Shown in pieces: positions 7,330 to 24,171 of a stretch of 64,000 nt of DNA (positions within the stretch are counted from its first letter, which is position 1; each line of letters starts with the position of its first letter). The notes beneath the pieces were generated by a model. It did no database searches. It worked only from the letters and a program-made list of their open reading frames with translations, and was not told the origin of the DNA. The position numbers and the translations under genes were made by a program. The stretch is taken from assembly GCA_030524175.1 (NCBI GenBank), contig JAUNHC010000020.1, forward strand, positions 30,925-94,924, in the 5' to 3' direction. The DNA is from Eubacteriales bacterium. Its GTDB lineage: Bacteria > Bacillota > Clostridia > Lachnospirales > Lachnospiraceae.

Positions 7330-8397
7330 TTATTCTTTTTCCTCATAGGTGCCAAATGCCTGATATTCAGCTACATTTTCAGAATCCACAACATGTACGG
7401 GAATTACGTAATTCTGCTCAATGTCTGTTTCGCCGTTGGTATGTTTCACCATAACGTCGATTGCCTCTTTGATCATGGCAGGATCATAGGTTACGGAGAA
7501 TAAATCATAGGAATCCGGAAGTGTGATGGTCTGGTGTTTGTCCTTCAGCACTGCATAAATCTCGGCAAGTCCTGAGGAAGCGCCTAAAGCCTTGAAGTTT
7601 TTCAGGAATTCTTCTTTTTTGCTCTCGTCAAGAGCTGCACCGTTTAAGGATTCCATAATACCCATGGCAATTTCATCATCATGAGTGAAGATCCAGTTGT
7701 TTTTAGCCGGGTCACACTGAGTAGAACCAAACCAGGACTCAAACAATTCTTTTCCTGTGTCACGGCTCCATCCGGTAGCTGCAGATTTCACAACAACTGC
7801 ATCAATTTCTTCGTCTGACCATCCCTGCTCCTGAAGATAAGTACGGAAGCCCTTAGAACGAAGCTCCGGCACTGAGGAGTTATCACCGATCATTTCGTAC
7901 ACATAATCATCTTTTGTAAGGCCATCTTCAATAAATCTCTTGGCTGTCTCATAGCCGATTCCTTCATTGTCACCTTTAACGTTAGCTATAACTTTTGCAT
8001 CGATCACATCGCTGTTGATCACACGGTCAAACTGTACAAAAGGTACATCTGCAGCGGCAATCTTTTCCAGTGTGGACTGAAGGCCGTTGTCATAAGGAAG
8101 AATAACTATGCCTGCCAGATTTCCTGTGTTAGACAATAAATCGTCTACCTGCTGAATCTGGTTTTCCACATCTGTTGCTGCATACACTTTTGCAGAGTAA
8201 GTTCCCTCATCGTTGATTTCATCCACTTTTTCCTGTGCATAAGTAAGAACAGCGCCTGTCCAGCCATGGTCAGCACTTGGCACCATTACCGCGATTTCCT
8301 TCGCGTCATCTGCATATACGGTCACTCCGGTTCCCAACAATGTGGATGCAAGCATGGATGCTGCCAATAATGTGGTAGTGATTTTCTTAAACTTCAT
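7330..8397 (-). CDS. Sugar-binding protein of the RbsB type (secreted, no lipobox)
   Basis: This 355-aa periplasmic-binding-protein-like type I protein has a signal peptide with an AxA-type cut near residue 29 (VTVYA-DD). The mature part starts KEIAVMVPSADHGW, and a VKGDNEGIGYETAK segment and THDDEIAMGI match sugar-binding positions. There is no cysteine at the signal end, which is unusual for a Gram-positive ABC binding protein because it would not be lipid-anchored. It is a clear paralogue of the lipoprotein encoded at 13729-14748, sharing VKGDN.GIG.ETAK, TGW.R.DT and FTHDDEIA. First gene of the transporter operon. Confidence 0.9.
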   Translation of the reverse strand: MKFKKITTTLLAASMLASTLLGTGVTVYADDAKEIAVMVPSADHGWTGAVLTYAQEKVDEINDEGTYSAKVYAATDVENQIQQVDDLLSNTGNLAGIVILPYDNGLQSTLEKIAAADVPFVQFDRVINSDVIDAKVIANVKGDNEGIGYETAKRFIEDGLTKDDYVYEMIGDNSSVPELRSKGFRTYLQEQGWSDEEIDAVVVKSAATGWSRDTGKELFESWFGSTQCDPAKNNWIFTHDDEIAMGIMESLNGAALDESKKEEFLKNFKALGASSGLAEIYAVLKDKHQTITLPDSYDLFSVTYDPAMIKEAIDVMVKHTNGETDIEQNYVIPVHVVDSENVAEYQAFGTYEEKE

Positions 8398-17113: not shown

Positions 17114-17155
17114 TAAAAAAACGCCTGGGAAGCCTTTCTCCAGGCTGCCCAGGCG
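17114..17155 (-). terminator. ZTP riboswitch expression platform (intrinsic terminator)
   Basis: The stem CGCCTGGG (17148-17155) pairs with CCCAGGCG (17122-17129), followed by seven T on the minus strand. The 5' arm is the conserved CCGCCTGGGC element of the aptamer. Ligand binding would therefore hide the arm and prevent termination, making this an ON switch. Confidence 0.87.
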
Positions 17156-17221
17156 GTCGGCACGATACTTCTGCTGCACTCCCTGTAGGTGACCCTACTT
17201 CCGCCAGTCATGCAGCCGTTA
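17143..17221 (-). promoter_or_regulatory. ZTP/ZMP (pfl) riboswitch aptamer
   Basis: The minus strand carries the conserved pfl elements in order: ACTGGCGG, then GGGTCACC..GGGAG about 10 nt later, then CCGCCTGGGC. ZMP (AICAR) and ZTP accumulate when folate-dependent formylation is limiting. The switch sits upstream of the genes that consume AICAR, so the logic is self-consistent. Confidence 0.9.
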
Positions 17222-17319: not shown

Positions 17320-20300
17320 TTATTTCACAATCACTTTCTTCTGATTAGACCATGGACTAAACACCTTCTTTTGGTCCTCACTGCTCCTGTTCCAGGCATG
17401 AACTCCGGCAAAATAAGTTCCTTTTTCCACATTCTTAAATGTGACAGTCACCTTGTCCCGGCCCTTTTCTTTTATTACATACGGAGAATAATCAACAGGA
17501 CGCATTTCCCCATTTACCTTCTTCCTCTCCCTGCCAAGTATAACGTCATATCCTGAAGCATTTTTGCAGCGGGTAAAGGTAACCTGTACTGTATTCCCCT
17601 TCCGTGACACGCTGACAATCCTGGGAGTATCAGGGGTCTCGGCTGTTACATTGAAAAGATAAGGTTCTGACCAGATACTGAATTTCTTCTTTCCGTTTTC
17701 ATCTCTTATCCATGAATGGCAGTATGCATAGTAAGTACCTTTCTGTACATAGTAGAAATCTGTCTTTGTCAAAAGGATGTTTTTCTTTACCTGTAGATAA
17801 TCTTTATCTACAATGCAATTTATATTTTCACTGATAACGAAATCATAGCCCTGAGCCCCTGCACTTTCCCCTTCAAGGATAGCTGCCGCTTTGTTGCCCG
17901 TTACATTTACTGTCTTGATCACCGGAGCGGCCGGACGTATAACAGTTCCATCCTTTCCGATAATACTTCCGTCAGCACCGTGTATTGTACCATCGGGCTG
18001 TACCGTTGTGCCATCAGGATAAGTGACTGTCCCATCGGGCTGTACCACGGAACCTGCAGGCGGCTGTACTTTATTGCCGTCCGGCTGTACTACTGTATTT
18101 CCTTCTGCAGTAGTTACAGTTCCCGTTTCCGGATCATACTTGGGCCGTTCCCCGTTATCTCCTTTGTTTATCTCAGTGTGCCCCTGGTCAGGGTCTGTAT
18201 TAGGCAAAGTGACATTTCCTTCACTGTCTATCACTGTTCCATTTACATCCGTAACATTCTCCTGCTTGTCAATAGATGGTTTCTTTCCGTCCTCGCCAGG
18301 TGAAAGAACAGTTTCATCCGGGAGAATAATTGTTCCGTCCGGCTTTATGACCGTTCCGTTGGGGGTCTGTATACTTCCGTCCGGAAGTAAAATGGAACCT
18401 GGAGGCATATTGTCTAATGGGGACGGTACAGGGACATAAATAACAAGACCTTTATAATCCTCTTCCAAAAGCTTCACATAATCATCTACTAATGACTGCT
18501 GTTTTAGGGGCAGTTTTCGATAAGCATCCAATAATCTAAACCGCTCTTGCAGAGATTTTTTTGACTGGTTATCTATATATTTATCAAGCGATCCTATTTT
18601 AATCAGCACAGCATCTAATTCTGTAAAGTCGGCCGGATATACAGTGATGCTATGATCGATATCCATGTCCTCATTGACGGTAACTGTCAAAGTCCATGTA
18701 TCCTTTGAACCGGAGTCCAACGTTATCTCTTCTATAGGGTCAGTTGTCCCTTTTTTTAATGCTGTAAGGCTGCTTATCTCGCCGTAATTAATCCAGTTAT
18801 TTTTTAAAGCAGCAGTTACTATAATTTCGCTTCCGCTTTTATAGTAGTCAAGTTTTCCTTGAGTAGTCTTGTCCCCTCCGGTCACCTTGACTGTATACTC
18901 CGCGCCCTCCGGTGCTGTAGTTACCTGATGATAAGTCCCGTCTTTCAAGAATATTTTTAATGTAATATCATATGGGGGAGCATCTGTATCAATGGTCAGT
19001 ATTGTTTTCCCGTTTTCCTCTGAATACGTAAAATCACCTGCCCAAAACGGTAAATTAGCCTCCCAGCCACCAGCAGAATAGTAGTACCGCACTTCCTCAA
19101 TCAGCCTTCCCAATGGAAGTTCGATTTTAATTTTTAATTTGCCGCCTTCAACCATTGTTTGAGGAATTTCAAGGATTTTTACTCCGTCAGGAAGCTCGCT
19201 GTCATCAGGCGGTGTGATCGTATGTAATATCGGTTCAGGTACTACCACGGTTGCATCCGGACTTGGGTTCCAGGTATCCGTTTCTGCAAGTCTTACCTTA
19301 TAAGTGCCTGCAGTTAATCCTGCGATTTCTTTGTCCCCCTTACTCGTCTTCTGATAGTCCTGTTCCCCGTCTTTTTTATATTCATATATTTTGCTTGTAT
19401 CTAACCCTGTGATTTTACCGTCATTGCCGCCCATAGCTGTGGGAAATTCTCCTTTAAGTCCCTGAGGTGCTCCCGGATTAAATTTCGGCCTTGTTATTGT
19501 GACACTGTAATAACTGGTTTTACTTTCGTCTTTCGATGTGACAGTAAAAGGAAAAGTATTGGTTCCATATGGAATATCAAATGTACATTTACCGGTATAT
19601 GACTTTCCTTCATAACTGATTACTGCCTGGGTATTGACGGTACGGACAGTAAATACCTTTAAATTCGTACCCACATCTCCGCTTATAGTATAAACATCAT
19701 TATCAGCACCCGTGCCGTTCCATGATCCGGGCCATCCGTCAATAAGTGCATCCGTATTGTCGTCAGCGGCAGACGCCTTCTTTGTCAACTCTAATGTATC
19801 CGTAGGTACATAGCTGTTGTTGGATGTAACTATTGCATCCTGCATCTCATAAAATGGATTATCCAAAAGCACAACTTTATAGTCTTTTATTTCATTGCCC
19901 ACGTAATTGAAATCAATTTTGTATACATTATAACCTAGAGCAAAACTGCTGACAGCCGTTGTTTTTTGAACCCAGGCTCCTGGATCATTGCTGTCCTTTT
20001 CATACAACACAAAGCTCAGTCCGCTGAGATCTGCCTGATCGTCATACTGACCTGGCTGTCCCTCAAGGGGCAGTCTAAGTCTCAATACCACGTACTGTGC
20101 CGCAGACAGCAGCGCACCCTCTTCGGCTTCCTCTACTCCACCCCCGGCATTCCTACTTCTCCCATCTGTAAAGTCTCCTGCTTCCTGTACTTGTTCAGAC
20201 AGTGGCTCTTGTGCACTAAACTCTGCCTGTTGGTTCAAATTCTCCTCCGGCATTTGTACTTCTGTCTCAGAACTGCTGAAAACTGCAGTATCTTCCATAC

Positions 20301-20379
20301 CCACGGCTGACGCCATTGCCGGTACGGATGTCAGCATCATTGTAAATGCCAGCATACACGCCAGTAATCTTTTCTTCAT
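17320..20379 (-). CDS. Large secreted repeat protein with cadherin-like and FN3-like domains
   Basis: This 1019-aa protein has a signal peptide (MKKRLLACMLAF..., cut near residue 25). An acidic N-terminal stretch is followed by a cadherin-like beta-sandwich around 215-300 (TVNTQAVISYEGK...YYSVTITRP) and other beta domains to 600. Residues about 650-800 are a low-complexity linker built on PDGT/PDGS/PNGT units. Two FN3-like domains with a WxxPY/F signature end the protein. There is no LPXTG motif, SLH domain or C-terminal helix, so it is probably secreted or loosely held. It may be an adhesin or glycan-binding protein; no enzymatic domain is visible. Confidence 0.8.
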   Translation of the reverse strand: MKKRLLACMLAFTMMLTSVPAMASAVGMEDTAVFSSSETEVQMPEENLNQQAEFSAQEPLSEQVQEAGDFTDGRSRNAGGGVEEAEEGALLSAAQYVVLRLRLPLEGQPGQYDDQADLSGLSFVLYEKDSNDPGAWVQKTTAVSSFALGYNVYKIDFNYVGNEIKDYKVVLLDNPFYEMQDAIVTSNNSYVPTDTLELTKKASAADDNTDALIDGWPGSWNGTGADNDVYTISGDVGTNLKVFTVRTVNTQAVISYEGKSYTGKCTFDIPYGTNTFPFTVTSKDESKTSYYSVTITRPKFNPGAPQGLKGEFPTAMGGNDGKITGLDTSKIYEYKKDGEQDYQKTSKGDKEIAGLTAGTYKVRLAETDTWNPSPDATVVVPEPILHTITPPDDSELPDGVKILEIPQTMVEGGKLKIKIELPLGRLIEEVRYYYSAGGWEANLPFWAGDFTYSEENGKTILTIDTDAPPYDITLKIFLKDGTYHQVTTAPEGAEYTVKVTGGDKTTQGKLDYYKSGSEIIVTAALKNNWINYGEISSLTALKKGTTDPIEEITLDSGSKDTWTLTVTVNEDMDIDHSITVYPADFTELDAVLIKIGSLDKYIDNQSKKSLQERFRLLDAYRKLPLKQQSLVDDYVKLLEEDYKGLVIYVPVPSPLDNMPPGSILLPDGSIQTPNGTVIKPDGTIILPDETVLSPGEDGKKPSIDKQENVTDVNGTVIDSEGNVTLPNTDPDQGHTEINKGDNGERPKYDPETGTVTTAEGNTVVQPDGNKVQPPAGSVVQPDGTVTYPDGTTVQPDGTIHGADGSIIGKDGTVIRPAAPVIKTVNVTGNKAAAILEGESAGAQGYDFVISENINCIVDKDYLQVKKNILLTKTDFYYVQKGTYYAYCHSWIRDENGKKKFSIWSEPYLFNVTAETPDTPRIVSVSRKGNTVQVTFTRCKNASGYDVILGRERKKVNGEMRPVDYSPYVIKEKGRDKVTVTFKNVEKGTYFAGVHAWNRSSEDQKKVFSPWSNQKKVIVK

Positions 20380-20407
20380 TTTTACACCCTTCCTTTCTCT
20401 TTTTTAC

Positions 20408-20456
20408 AGGGATGTCTAAAACCATCCCTTGAACATTGGCTGTATATGTTCAGCCA
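20408..20456 (-). promoter_or_regulatory. Two small hairpins in the leader of the secreted repeat protein
   Basis: TGGCTG-N8-CAGCCA (20437-20456) and AGGGATG-N8-CATCCCT (20408-20429) lie between the upstream terminator and the ATG at 20379. They do not have T tails. They could shape translation or mRNA stability. I do not recognise them as a known riboswitch. Confidence 0.35.
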
Positions 20457-20464
20457 TATATGCA

Positions 20465-20495
20465 AAAACAGAAAGCCAAATTGACTTTCTGTTTT
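20465..20495. terminator. Terminator after the OmpR-type regulator (bidirectional form)
   Basis: A perfect 11-bp stem AAAACAGAAAG/CTTTCTGTTTT with T runs on both strands. It starts 75 bp after the regulator stop. Confidence 0.85.
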
Positions 20496-20570
20496 ACGGG
20501 GGCTTATCCCCTGCCTACAGTATACTGTAAAAAAGAGAGAAAATGGGAAAGATTGCAGATTTGTAACCTT

Positions 20571-21257
20571 TTATTCTTCCTTGCCGAAACAATATCCGCT
20601 TCCCCAGCCGGAAGTGATTGTATATTCACTGCCTTCCAGTTTTCTGCGCAAACGTGACACAGTGGTGCGTACTGCTCTGGCATCTCCGTGCATGGGCAGT
20701 TTCCATACTGCTTCATATAAAGATTTCGGGGATATCCCCTGTCCTTCGTGCTGTATCAGATACAGAAGGGCAGTGTACTCCCTGGGATTCAGCAGCATGT
20801 CCTGCCCCTTAAGATACGCTCTGTATGCCACCAGATCCAGTTCTATCGGCCCGCATACCAGCCTGGAAGGCACCTTCATATGTCTTCTGGCCAGAAGAGC
20901 TACAATACGTGCCTGGAGCTCTTCAATGCGGTAAGGCTTTGTCATATAATCATCGGCACCTCCAGTGAGACCTTTGACCATATCCTCATAGTCCCGTCTG
21001 CTGGTAAGCATGAGTACGGAGGCGGCACAGATCTGTCTTAATTCAGGGATAAATTCCAGTCCATTCCCATCAGGCAGCAAAATATCCAGTACCGCAATAT
21101 CCACTGCAGGATGCTCTTCCAATATCTTCCTTGTGTCTTCTAAAGTTCCGGCAGTGAGTACATGGAAATTCTTACGCTTTAAAACTGCTTCATTTAGTTT
21201 CAGGACATGTTCGTTATCCTCAACCAGCAGGATCACAGGGCTTTTATTTTCACTCAT
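20571..21257 (-). CDS. OmpR/PhoB-type response regulator
   Basis: This 228-aa protein has a receiver domain with Asp58 in AVLDILLPDG and Lys in MTKPYRI near residue 108, then a winged-helix DNA-binding domain from about 130 (LLNPREYTALLYL; VRTTVSRLRRKL; SGWGSGYCF). Its ATG overlaps the kinase stop by 8 bp (ATGAGTGA), so it is translationally coupled to the kinase gene. That kinase is frame-broken in this sequence. A likely target is the repeat-protein gene immediately downstream, but this is inference. Confidence 0.92.
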   Translation of the reverse strand: MSENKSPVILLVEDNEHVLKLNEAVLKRKNFHVLTAGTLEDTRKILEEHPAVDIAVLDILLPDGNGLEFIPELRQICAASVLMLTSRRDYEDMVKGLTGGADDYMTKPYRIEELQARIVALLARRHMKVPSRLVCGPIELDLVAYRAYLKGQDMLLNPREYTALLYLIQHEGQGISPKSLYEAVWKLPMHGDARAVRTTVSRLRRKLEGSEYTITSGWGSGYCFGKEE

Positions 21258-23236
21258 AACTACCTTCCTCTCCTATGGGTATTGTAAACCGGACTACAGT
21301 GCCTTTTCCCACAACGCTGTCAGCATTTATATTTCCGCCGTGGGCCTCTATGATCCGGGCAGTGATATACAAGCCAAGACCATTACCTCCGGCATCCCGG
21401 TTCTTAGGATAACGTTTAAACAGATGGGACAGAAGTTCCGGCTGGATTCCGTCACCTGTGTCTTCTACAGTGACTGTTATCTCCTTACCTTCCGCCTGAA
21501 CTCTTAAGGTGATCGTGCCGTCATGGGTATGCTTTGATGAATTTGACAACAGATTGATCATTACCTGCAAAAGTCTCTCTTTGTCCCCGTATATGACAGG
21601 CAGGTCAGCACCCTGCAACACCCTAATGGTGTTATTTCCTCTGTCCATAATGGGAAAATGGACTCTGGAAACAGTATCCAGCAGTTCTGTCATATCAAGC
21701 CATTCCTTTTTCAGGCTAAAGCTGCCGCTCTCTATGGCAGCTTCATCCAGAAGCTGTGTCACCAGCCGTTCCATCCGTCCTGCCTCACTGTCTACCCGTC
21801 TCATATTATCCTTCACAGCCTCCCGGTCCACTGCAGCATCGTCCATCATATCCCCTGTAAGCTGGGCAAAACCTGTTACTACAGTTATAGGTATCTGCAG
21901 TTCATGAGAAAGATTATGTAAAAATTCCTCCTTTAGTTTGTTTGCCCTGCGAAGAGCCTCTGCCTCAAACCGCCTGTCCTGTTCTGACTGCCGTGCTAAA
22001 GCCACCTCCCGCATAGTGCCGTAAAAGGAAGCAGTCATCTGGAACAGAATGAATACCAGTGCAGCAAAATCCATCATACTGTCATAGATTACCGGAAAAA
22101 TCCTGATATCCCCATGATAGAACATTTCCCTGAGAGCAAGATACACAAAAAGTACAAGACCGCATAGTACAATGACATGCTGGACATCCATACCTGCCGT
22201 TGTCTGTGTGAAAAAGCACTTAAACACATATAGTGCGCACAACAGCACCATTACGTACACAGCAGGCAGTATCTGAGTCATTAAAACAGTGGGTATAAAA
22301 GAAAATAGAAGTACCGCCGCGGCATTCACTGATACGATAAAATATTTTGCCCCCCCCCCTGAAAATCCCTTCAAACATGGCATCCAGTGCCAGGATGATC
22401 AGAAGGCTTGCCAGGGGAATTGCAATATATTCCAGGCGGAAGGTGAGATACCAGGAGATTTCCGGGAACAGTGCAGTGATGACCTTCGGCCCTGTCACGC
22501 CTGTCCGCACCAGCCATACAAGACAAAATAATGCAAAGTACAGATTTGTCCGATAGCTTCTTAACTGCAGAAACAGTACAAGATGAATGATAAACAGAAT
22601 CAGGCAGCCCCCCATGATCGCCGCAACAGTCAAGGTCTGCCGGGAGCATAAACGGCTGATACTCTCCACGGACCCGATATCCAGTCCTACAGGATTACCG
22701 CCTTTTTTATGCACAAAGTTAGAAACCTGATGTACCACCTCAATCACTCCATTATCAGGAACAACTGTATAATATACGGTTGTAGTCAAGGGGACTGTCT
22801 CTTTGGAATTTGTACCGGGCCGGCCCACATCCTGCATATGCTGACCATTGATATAAATAGTGTCGGCATAATCCACACTGGAAAAAGTGATCCCATATAC
22901 ACGCCCATCGGGCACAAGTATGCGGAAACGCGCCGTATAATACTGTGTTTCTTCTGCCTTTTCCGTCTTTACCACCTGAGCCTTGGGATTATTGTCAAAT
23001 TCCTCCGGGGTTAAAAGAGCTTGTGGTACATATTCAACTTTATCCCCCTTCAGCCGGACATAATGCTTCTGCATTTCCACGCTTCTCAAATCCCATACCG
23101 GATCATCTGAATGTAATGTGATCATAGCAGAAGTGTCAGCCTTAAGCTGCCACACAAAAAAGCATAGCACAAAGATACAAGGAAGAAGCAGCGATAAACT
23201 CCACCATTCTTTATTTGTTATTTTCATCTTCTTCAT
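21250..23236 (-). pseudogene. 7TMR-DISM sensor histidine kinase, frame broken at a G10 tract (phase-variable or disrupted)
   Basis: Two overlapping frames, 23236-22220 (338 codons) and 22383-21250 (377 codons), are halves of one kinase. The first carries an N-terminal helix, an extracellular 7TMR-DISMED2-like beta domain (residues about 40-185) and the first helices of a 7TM block. The second carries the remaining helices, the H-box SHELQIPITV, and the ATPase domain (GDGIQPELL, NGLGLYI). The switch point is a run of ten C on the plus strand at 22350-22359. Nine would join the frames into one protein of about 661 aa. With ten, the product ends in an unrelated tail. A sequencing error is the main alternative. 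Confidence 0.85.
22350..22359. repeat. Homopolymer tract C10 (G10 on the coding strand)
   Basis: Ten consecutive C lie inside the kinase gene at the boundary of the two frames. Tracts this long slip during replication. Changing the count by one (9 or 12 versus 10 or 11) turns the full-length kinase on or off. Confidence 0.9.
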
Positions 23237-23310
23237 ATCACGTCTCCTTCCTGACAGCTTATTGTATGATCAGCGATGTCTGCGTCAGCTCACACGTCCG
23301 TTTTATAGTC

Positions 23311-23342
23311 AAAACCGCGCTTCCTTTTACAGGAAAACGCGG
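23311..23342 (-). terminator. Terminator after the amidase gene
   Basis: The stem CCGCG-TTCCT/AGGAA-CGCGG with small bulges is followed on the minus strand by TTTT. It lies between the amidase stop (23374) and the kinase start (23236). Confidence 0.75.
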
Positions 23343-23373
23343 CTGAATCATCTATAAAGCTTATAATACTACA

Positions 23374-24171
23374 TCATAAATTCTCCTGGAGCACATAATC
23401 CTCCTGGATCCGGCCGGCAATATCGGCTTTCATCTGAGTCCAGGCATCCGGGTTTTCCACATAGTATTTCGGACAGTTCTTACCGGTGACATCATAGTGC
23501 CGGATCACATTTTCTTCCGTCAGTCCGAACCTGGTACAGAGCCATGCTGTAAGCTTCACAACAGAATCATAGGTAGAATCATTAAAAAGCCCTGTTTCAT
23601 CAGGATGACAGCATTCTATAGACAAAGTATCCACATTCCGCTCATTGGTGGCATAGGACATCTCAGATGTGGGAATACACTGTACCACTTCTCCATCCAG
23701 ACCTACCACAAAGTGGCTGCTGGCTTTTGTCTGCTGAGTTACTGCCAGGTTCTCGAAATAATTTCTGTTGGCTATGGCTGTTGCGCCCGGATTGGCTGTG
23801 TAGTGGATGGCTATGTACTTAACACTGTCTATGGCTATCTGCGGCCTGGAATACTCATTGGGGGTGAGCAGTTCAACATCAATGTAAGGAGCACCCTCCT
23901 GCTGCCAGAGCTCGGGGCCGCCTCCTGAATTCTTGATAACCGCTTCCCTCTGCTGCTGTTCTCTCTCCTGGGCCACCTTAAGGGCCGCTGCAGCGATGAT
24001 GAGAATGACAAGAAGAACACCTAGACAGGCTATGATAACGTGCAAGTTTCTCTGCCTGGTCCGGCTGCGGTGCCTGACTGCCTTTGGTCTGTTACCAGCA
24101 GAAGCCTTCCCGGGATAGGAAGGCTTTGCGGAATTCTTTTTAAATTTATTTGTACCCTTCTTTTGTGCCAT
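23374..24171 (-). CDS. Membrane-anchored N-acetylmuramoyl-L-alanine amidase (Amidase_2)
   Basis: This 265-aa protein has a basic cytoplasmic N terminus (residues 1-42) and one membrane helix (43-65). An extracellular Amidase_2/PGRP-type domain follows at about 110-250. Zinc-ligand motifs are visible: IHYTANPG (His near residue 122) and RHYDVTGKNCP (His near 225 and the usual Cys). It cleaves the bond between muramic acid and L-alanine in peptidoglycan. The type II topology keeps it at the outer face of the membrane. No spore-related neighbour was seen. Confidence 0.88.
   Translation of the reverse strand: MAQKKGTNKFKKNSAKPSYPGKASAGNRPKAVRHRSRTRQRNLHVIIACLGVLLVILIIAAAALKVAQEREQQQREAVIKNSGGGPELWQQEGAPYIDVELLTPNEYSRPQIAIDSVKYIAIHYTANPGATAIANRNYFENLAVTQQTKASSHFVVGLDGEVVQCIPTSEMSYATNERNVDTLSIECCHPDETGLFNDSTYDSVVKLTAWLCTRFGLTEENVIRHYDVTGKNCPKYYVENPDAWTQMKADIAGRIQEDYVLQENL

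Follow-up and report, generated by a model that had tools for sequence, protein, structure and literature searches.

A sensor histidine kinase gene in the stretch of DNA analyzed here (64,000 nucleotides, hereafter the window) is interrupted only by a run of ten G residues, and we consider it probable (roughly 0.77) that this tract marks the OFF state of a locus belonging to a genus-wide system of poly-G phase variation, in other words a simple-sequence contingency locus. This reading was drawn from sequence comparison; from it we infer the rate of slippage, mixed populations, the effect on signaling, and any effect there may be on the neighboring surface protein.

The tract is G10 on the coding strand, and therefore C10 on the plus strand, and it is the sole G/C run of at least 8 in the window. 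Its position and those of the surrounding features are given in Table 1. At the tract, a sensor open reading frame (ORF; 23236..22220, minus strand) joins a kinase ORF (22383..21250, minus strand). We computed how the gene reads at different tract lengths. With nine G residues, it is in frame and comprises 661 codons plus a stop, whereas with ten, as assembled, a stop occurs at codon 339, which leaves a 338-aa protein. More generally, tracts of 6, 9, and 12 G keep the gene open to its own stop (660, 661, and 662 aa, respectively), tracts of 7, 10, and 13 G lead to a stop at codons 338 to 340, and tracts of 8, 11, and 14 G lead to a stop at codons 303 to 305. The sensor half alone matched the Pfam profile PF07695 (7TMR-DISM_7TM) with an E value of 9.9e-8 over the first 82 positions of the 205-position profile, and the kinase half matched PF00512 (HisKA) and PF02518 (HATPase_c), both above the Pfam cutoff. 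The gene belongs to the 7TMR-DISM sensor histidine kinases. The two halves have similar GC3 values (0.49 and 0.46; the GC content of the window is 46%). The initial annotation had proposed that the gene is split solely at the ten-G run and that one G fewer yields a 661-aa protein, and the ORFs, the domains, and the computed reading of the frame agree in bearing this out. The run is of slippage-prone length, and a change in its length moves an otherwise intact gene in or out of frame. A promoter scan of positions 20200 to 23500 gave five predictions, compared to 5.5 in shuffled sequence.

Table 1. Features of the kinase locus and its downstream neighbors (positions in the window)
Feature	Position	Strand	Remarks
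G10 tract, proposed slippage switch	22350..22359	-	assembled state out of frame
7TMR-DISM sensor histidine kinase gene	21250..23236	-	broken only at the G10 tract
Sensor half	22360..23236	-	N-terminal membrane segment, extracytoplasmic part, first part of 7TMR-DISM_7TM
Kinase half	21250..22383	-	remaining membrane domain, HisKA, HATPase_c
OmpR-type response regulator	20571..21257	-	Response_reg and Trans_reg_C; 8-nt overlap with kinase gene
Strong hairpin region, terminator-like	20455..20520	-	between regulator and surface gene; z -4.5
1019-aa surface/secreted protein	17320..20379	-	C-terminal tandem fibronectin-III-like module

A search with the sensor half matched 4 of 64 genomes of the genus, including the host genome and three others with weak matches, and 7 of 397 genomes of the family at an E value of 1e-20, again including the host genome. 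The same search of contigs from the species collection returned 12 loci. Six of these (L061 to L064, L066, and L067) were aligned together with six loci from the family genomes (L174 to L179), giving 12 aligned homologs; L065 and L068 to L072 were left out because they were partial or lacked a match to the kinase half. All 12 aligned homologs are single uninterrupted frames, and none has a G/C run of at least 6 at the tract site. Among the loci left out, L065 and L068 have no G/C run longer than 5 anywhere, and L069 has one of 7 somewhere. When the tract codes for two residues, which corresponds to nine G, the window kinase matches all 12 homologs across the loop without gaps, and in 7 of them K/R-W occupies the two tract-coded positions. 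L066 encodes an intact kinase of 661 aa that shares 61% identity with the window kinase in the sensor half and 42% in the kinase half; the last 8 nt of its gene overlap the beginning of a response-regulator gene. Each of five homologs scanned against Pfam has a full-length 7TMR-DISM_7TM domain. The gap-free fit of the 12 homologs and the 661-aa length of L066 indicate that nine G matches the ancestral length. With homologs that are free of it, the tract is a lineage-specific, slippage-prone insertion in a conserved gene, and it arose in the host lineage within a short loop that separates hydrophobic segments. No selection for keeping the tract at this site is evident, since none of the 12 homologs has it. 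In L061, L062, and L064, the sensor 7TM domain is fused to Trans_reg_C, an OmpR-type DNA-binding domain that replaces the kinase, and these proteins appear to be membrane-bound one-component regulators.

These comparisons bear on three other readings of the broken gene. The assembled sequence could encode a split system in which a membrane sensor of 338 aa works with a separate kinase of 377 aa, given that the kinase half opens in the G10 frame at an ATG at position 22383. However, no Shine-Dalgarno sequence is visible before this ATG, the 7TM domain would be cut midway, and all 12 aligned homologs are fused, which makes such a system very improbable. A fixed null allele, in which a one-base insertion killed the kinase and decay is beginning, would account for a frame that is broken in the one genome of the species and for a tract that no homolog shares; moreover, a second frame break in a surface protein gene on contig C46 indicates that some decay occurs in this genome. 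Against a null allele, we found no second lesion across the 661 codons, the Pfam domains and the regulator are intact, and many frame-broken tracts occur in parallel at other loci. Slippage also reverses changes in long G tracts, which makes a stable null unlikely, and we regard this alternative as improbable. Finally, slippage of the ribosome or of RNA polymerase on G10, a plausible slippery stretch on which a single-base shift suffices, could supply a low amount of full-length kinase. The tract would then act as a dimmer, which could coexist with a switch; yet it is not conserved, so there is no hint of a programmed site, and we give leaky recoding a slim chance.

The run-length spectrum of the host genome (G000; 5.95 Mb, a draft in 119 contigs) separates the tract from a chance occurrence. 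Genome size, GC content, and the number of genera in the family sample point to a probably Blautia-like genus of Lachnospiraceae. We counted 23, 5, 6, 6, and 3 exact G-runs of length 7, 8, 9, 10, and 11, respectively, and none longer. The 15 runs of at least 9 compare to about 1.4 expected from the geometric decay between lengths 7 and 8, an excess with a Poisson tail of about 4e-11 at the observed ratio and of 2e-6 even at a ratio of 0.4. Among runs of at least 10 in G000, three are A/T and nine are G/C. The genome is enriched in long G tracts beyond run-length decay. A chance run is thereby ruled out at the level of the genome; the count in the window alone (3 G8 words versus about 4 in shuffles) is unremarkable and uninformative on this point. 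Across the 64 genus genomes, there were 246 runs of at least 9 and 127 of exactly 8, and these counts are upper bounds that include some artifact, because runs sit at contig ends in some surveyed genomes (G006:C332:1-9 and G007:C30:2-10). Runs of at least 9 were more numerous than runs of exactly 8 in 32 of these genomes, equally numerous in 18, and fewer in 14; G067 had 32 of the former and 1 of the latter. In the family, where the counts likewise include some artifact, 253 of 397 genomes had at least one run of at least 9, with a patchy distribution. One genome, G233, contained 126 such runs. These runs and the contig-end runs in G006 and G007 are probably sequencing artifacts in some of the draft genomes. 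We rejected a poly-G sequencing artifact of this kind at the kinase, where the tract is internal to the contig and has homologous coding sequence on both sides.

A simpler error of assembly or sequencing, with a true tract fixed at nine and a kinase that is always made, has to be weighed because the assembly is a draft, homopolymers are error-prone, and the in-frame length is one base away. However, of the 26 A/T runs of 7 to 8 in the window, 18 fall within one long ORF each, and therefore no general problem of homopolymer frameshifts is visible. A one-base error also cannot yield the excess of G-runs of 9 to 11, and frame-breaking G-runs recur in the genus, including in genomes assembled as one contig (L133 to L135 in G001 and L194 in G068). 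Even a tract of G9 would keep its slippage potential. We therefore consider an error unlikely, and we return to poly-G phase variation as the preferred reading.

Six of the 15 tracts in G000 break the frame between two open halves. Besides the window kinase, the broken genes encode an Acyl_transf_3 protein (C79) and four surface proteins. Three of these (C46, C47, and C55) belong to one family; the fourth (C71) contains F5/8C, malectin, and FIVAR domains in a frame that stays open for 2,684 codons or more. The tract follows the start by 28 codons in C71, 35 in C47, and 57 in C55, in each case just behind what by eye appears to be a signal peptide; in C46, the distance is 98 codons. Other tracts precede a prepilin gene (C22), a MerR regulator (C11), and a LytTR regulator (C82); two sit at the 3' ends of a CTP_transf_3 gene and a GGDEF gene, and those on C9, on C70, and at C71:90633 lie in no clear gene. 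No tract in G000 is clearly in frame, compared to the six of 15 that are broken; the one tract scored in frame (L084) is probably intergenic.

Several of these loci have features of their own. On C46 (L081, 2847-10003), a response regulator recognized by eye, a 656-aa 7TMR-DISM kinase, and the tract-bearing surface protein stand in a row. This module mirrors that of the window, but the tract is in the surface gene, not in the kinase, and the second frame break of the surface gene lies near 7727-7743. On C99 (L091, 4036-4045), a G10 run that may serve as a ribosome-binding site lies between a GHKL kinase and a LytTR regulator, and the locus is convergent with another surface protein of the same family. 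On C11 (L076, 3991-4001), a G11 run ends six bases before the ATG of the MerR-family regulator and may act as a Shine-Dalgarno sequence of variable length.

We extended the analysis to five further genomes of the genus, which are not a random sample: G067 has many tracts; G065, G001, and G068 have few contigs; and G005 was added to these. All runs of at least 9 in the six genomes, including G000, gave 74 tracts (15 in G000, 32 in G067, 10 in G065, 5 in G001, 7 in G005, and 5 in G068). Of lengths 9, 10, 11, 12, and 13, there were 31, 24, 13, 4, and 2 tracts, respectively. A simple rule classified 21 of the 74 as frame-broken, 6 as in frame, 13 as located at a 3' end, and 9 as having a frame that opens at the tract, and it left 25 unclassified. 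Two-component genes account for 4 of the 21 frame-broken tracts; outside G000, the tract interrupts the genes for a GHKL kinase (L099), for a LytTR regulator (L124), and, in a one-contig genome (G068), for a PAS hybrid kinase (L194). The frame-broken genes also include acyltransferases (L113, L133, and L188), hexapeptide transferases (L123, L134, and L135), and a TupA-type ATP-grasp protein (L189). Glycosyltransferase L121 and acyltransferase L190 are in-frame examples of the same gene classes.

The Pfam scan took in every one of the 15 frame-broken tracts that lie outside G000, with L111 represented by its body only. In L133, L188, L189, and L110, the two sides of the tract match consecutive parts of one Pfam profile, and in L113 and L194 they match consecutive parts of related profiles, although several of the matches in upstream halves fall below Pfam's cutoff. 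A match was found in the downstream half only for L099, L123, L124, L134, and L135, and the scan of L114 gave no match. We rejected a glycosyltransferase (L104) and an FdtA gene (L122) as simple splits, given that near-complete copies of the domain lie on both sides of the tract. In L110 (G067, C8), G9 splits a D12-class N6-adenine DNA methyltransferase, with profile positions 1-32 before the tract and 120-189 after it, and a phase-variable methylome is possible.

A comparison of flanks shows that three G000 tracts have a counterpart at the corresponding position in G067; all three concern loci other than the window kinase. The leader of the prepilin gene (L077 on C22 in G000, L181 in G067) has G10 in G000 and G11 in G067, the region upstream of the LytTR gene (L089 on C82, L184) has G9 and G10, and the C71 surface protein (L086, L111) has G11 and G10, with an equal frame relation. 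In ungapped alignment, the length differences in the LytTR and surface protein pairs are due to a substitution at the tract edge with no net indel, and because this applies to two of the three pairs, the shared tracts are no proof of slippage. A fourth pair (C9 and L115) rests on 55 bases. By eye, the tract in the prepilin leader can pair with a conserved CTCCCTCCCCTCCTGAAA just before it, and the leader may contain a hairpin built from the tract. The LytTR tract is followed, 23 nt downstream, by a conserved extended -10 element (TATGGTATAAT) that precedes the response-regulator gene.

According to the reading we prefer for the window kinase, replication slippage at the G run would add or remove one base. 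With nine G (or nine plus or minus three), cells would be ON and make the complete 7TMR-DISM sensor kinase (661 aa with nine G), which could phosphorylate the overlapping OmpR-type regulator. With ten G, cells would be OFF, making the 338-aa protein that ends inside the membrane domain and lacks the kinase, and they would be blind to the kinase's signal. The presence or absence of the kinase would be heritable and reversible. The locus would belong to a set of G9 to G13 tracts, spread over the host and related species, with surface proteins, glycan-modifying enzymes, and regulators under their control. Beyond the single locus, we see about an even chance that a poly-G phasome in the genus reaches the sensing layer, where it would cover three types of sensor kinase and a response regulator in addition to surface proteins, glycan-modifying enzymes, and a DNA methyltransferase. 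A genus-wide phasome with two-component genes is more interesting than one kinase locus. If it exists, heritable differences among the cells of a clone would affect perception as well as display. If tracts do switch sensor kinases in abundant gut Firmicutes, differences between isolates in colonization and glycan response may stem from reversible one-base changes, which ordinary assemblies hide or label as pseudogenes.

Poly-G phase variation has mostly been described in host-adapted pathogens. In the clostridium Clostridioides difficile, CmrRST resembles the window system as a case of signal transduction, but it is switched by an invertible DNA element and not by a homopolymer tract. The review PMC11868660 names CmrRST as a phase-variable signal transducer, and this system, together with three further tract-broken two-component genes in five genus genomes, qualifies the earlier statement that phase-variable sensor kinases are uncommon in gut Clostridia. 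For gut commensals, the literature we found describes poly-G phase variation in bifidobacterial pili (PMC9187656). For Clostridia, Blautia, or Lachnospiraceae, no report of poly-G phase variation was found in a search whose scope left out most subscription journals and bioRxiv.

The kind of switch proposed here is known from BvgS and from Bifidobacterium pili. BvgS is built from periplasmic binding domains, PAS, and a phosphorelay, whereas Pfam shows only 7TMR-DISM, HisKA, and HATPase models in the window kinase, which we thus rejected as a BvgS homolog. In Bordetella pertussis, according to PMC1891110, which cites Stibitz 1989, a C6/C7 homopolymer change in bvgS leads to a truncated or a full-length kinase, and the regulon is switched. 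The window locus is similar in having a putative single-base switch at a G/C homopolymer inside a sensor-kinase gene. It differs from bvgS, which has a tract of 6 to 7 and belongs to a proteobacterial pathogen, in its G10 tract, its 7TMR-DISM kinase, its many sister tracts, and a switching that we infer. The sortase-pilus system of Bifidobacterium breve has an intragenic G tract between an ORF with a Sec signal and the ORF for the body of a large surface protein, and slippage of the pilus tract was measured by maximum-depth sequencing (PMC9187656). The same order of signal ORF, G tract, and body ORF found in this gut commensal is present in C47, C55, and C71, and C46 shares the layout with its tract 98 codons past the start. 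Unlike these pilus genes of an actinobacterium, the window tract lies in a sensor kinase. Campylobacter belongs to another phylum than the host, and its genomes are smaller. Among its putatively variable repeats, poly-G/C tracts are the most common kind (examples of tract ranges are G9-10 and C9-11), and signaling genes (of the MCP type) are among the targets of its phasome, as reported in PMC6321876, the main text of which does not contain the terms "two-component" and "histidine kinase."

The regulator directly downstream of the kinase is coupled to it, as had been proposed, in that the two genes overlap by 8 nt and L066 shows the same gene order and overlap. The 1019-aa protein downstream is also as the initial annotation described it, with a signal peptide judged by eye. 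Of the on/off switch proposed there, the part concerning the kinase is well supported by the architecture, the homologs, and the genome context; for the secreted protein, adjacency is the only link to the kinase and regulator. No such surface protein appears beside the kinase/regulator pair in the ORF list of L066. Because a strong hairpin stands between the regulator and the surface gene, an operon link is questionable, and cotranscription of the two genes is doubtful.

The last 204 residues of the 1019-aa protein are common to 18 genes in G000 (21 matches, three of which are second stretches; 17 were aligned, and C80, one of the 18 genes, is cut at its 5' end by a contig edge). Three of the 18 (C46, C47, and C55) bear a tract of G9 or G10 near the 5' end, and the two-component system of the window thus adjoins a surface protein whose family members bear tracts of their own elsewhere in G000. 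An AlphaFold model of the 204-residue module has a pLDDT of 95 and matches tandem fibronectin-III pairs in Foldseek (best E value 2e-8, with TM-scores up to 0.48 among the matches listed). Beyond the surface gene, positions 17140-17221 of the minus strand contain a ZMP/ZTP riboswitch (Rfam RF01750), which lies before an IMP cyclohydrolase-like gene and is ordinary.
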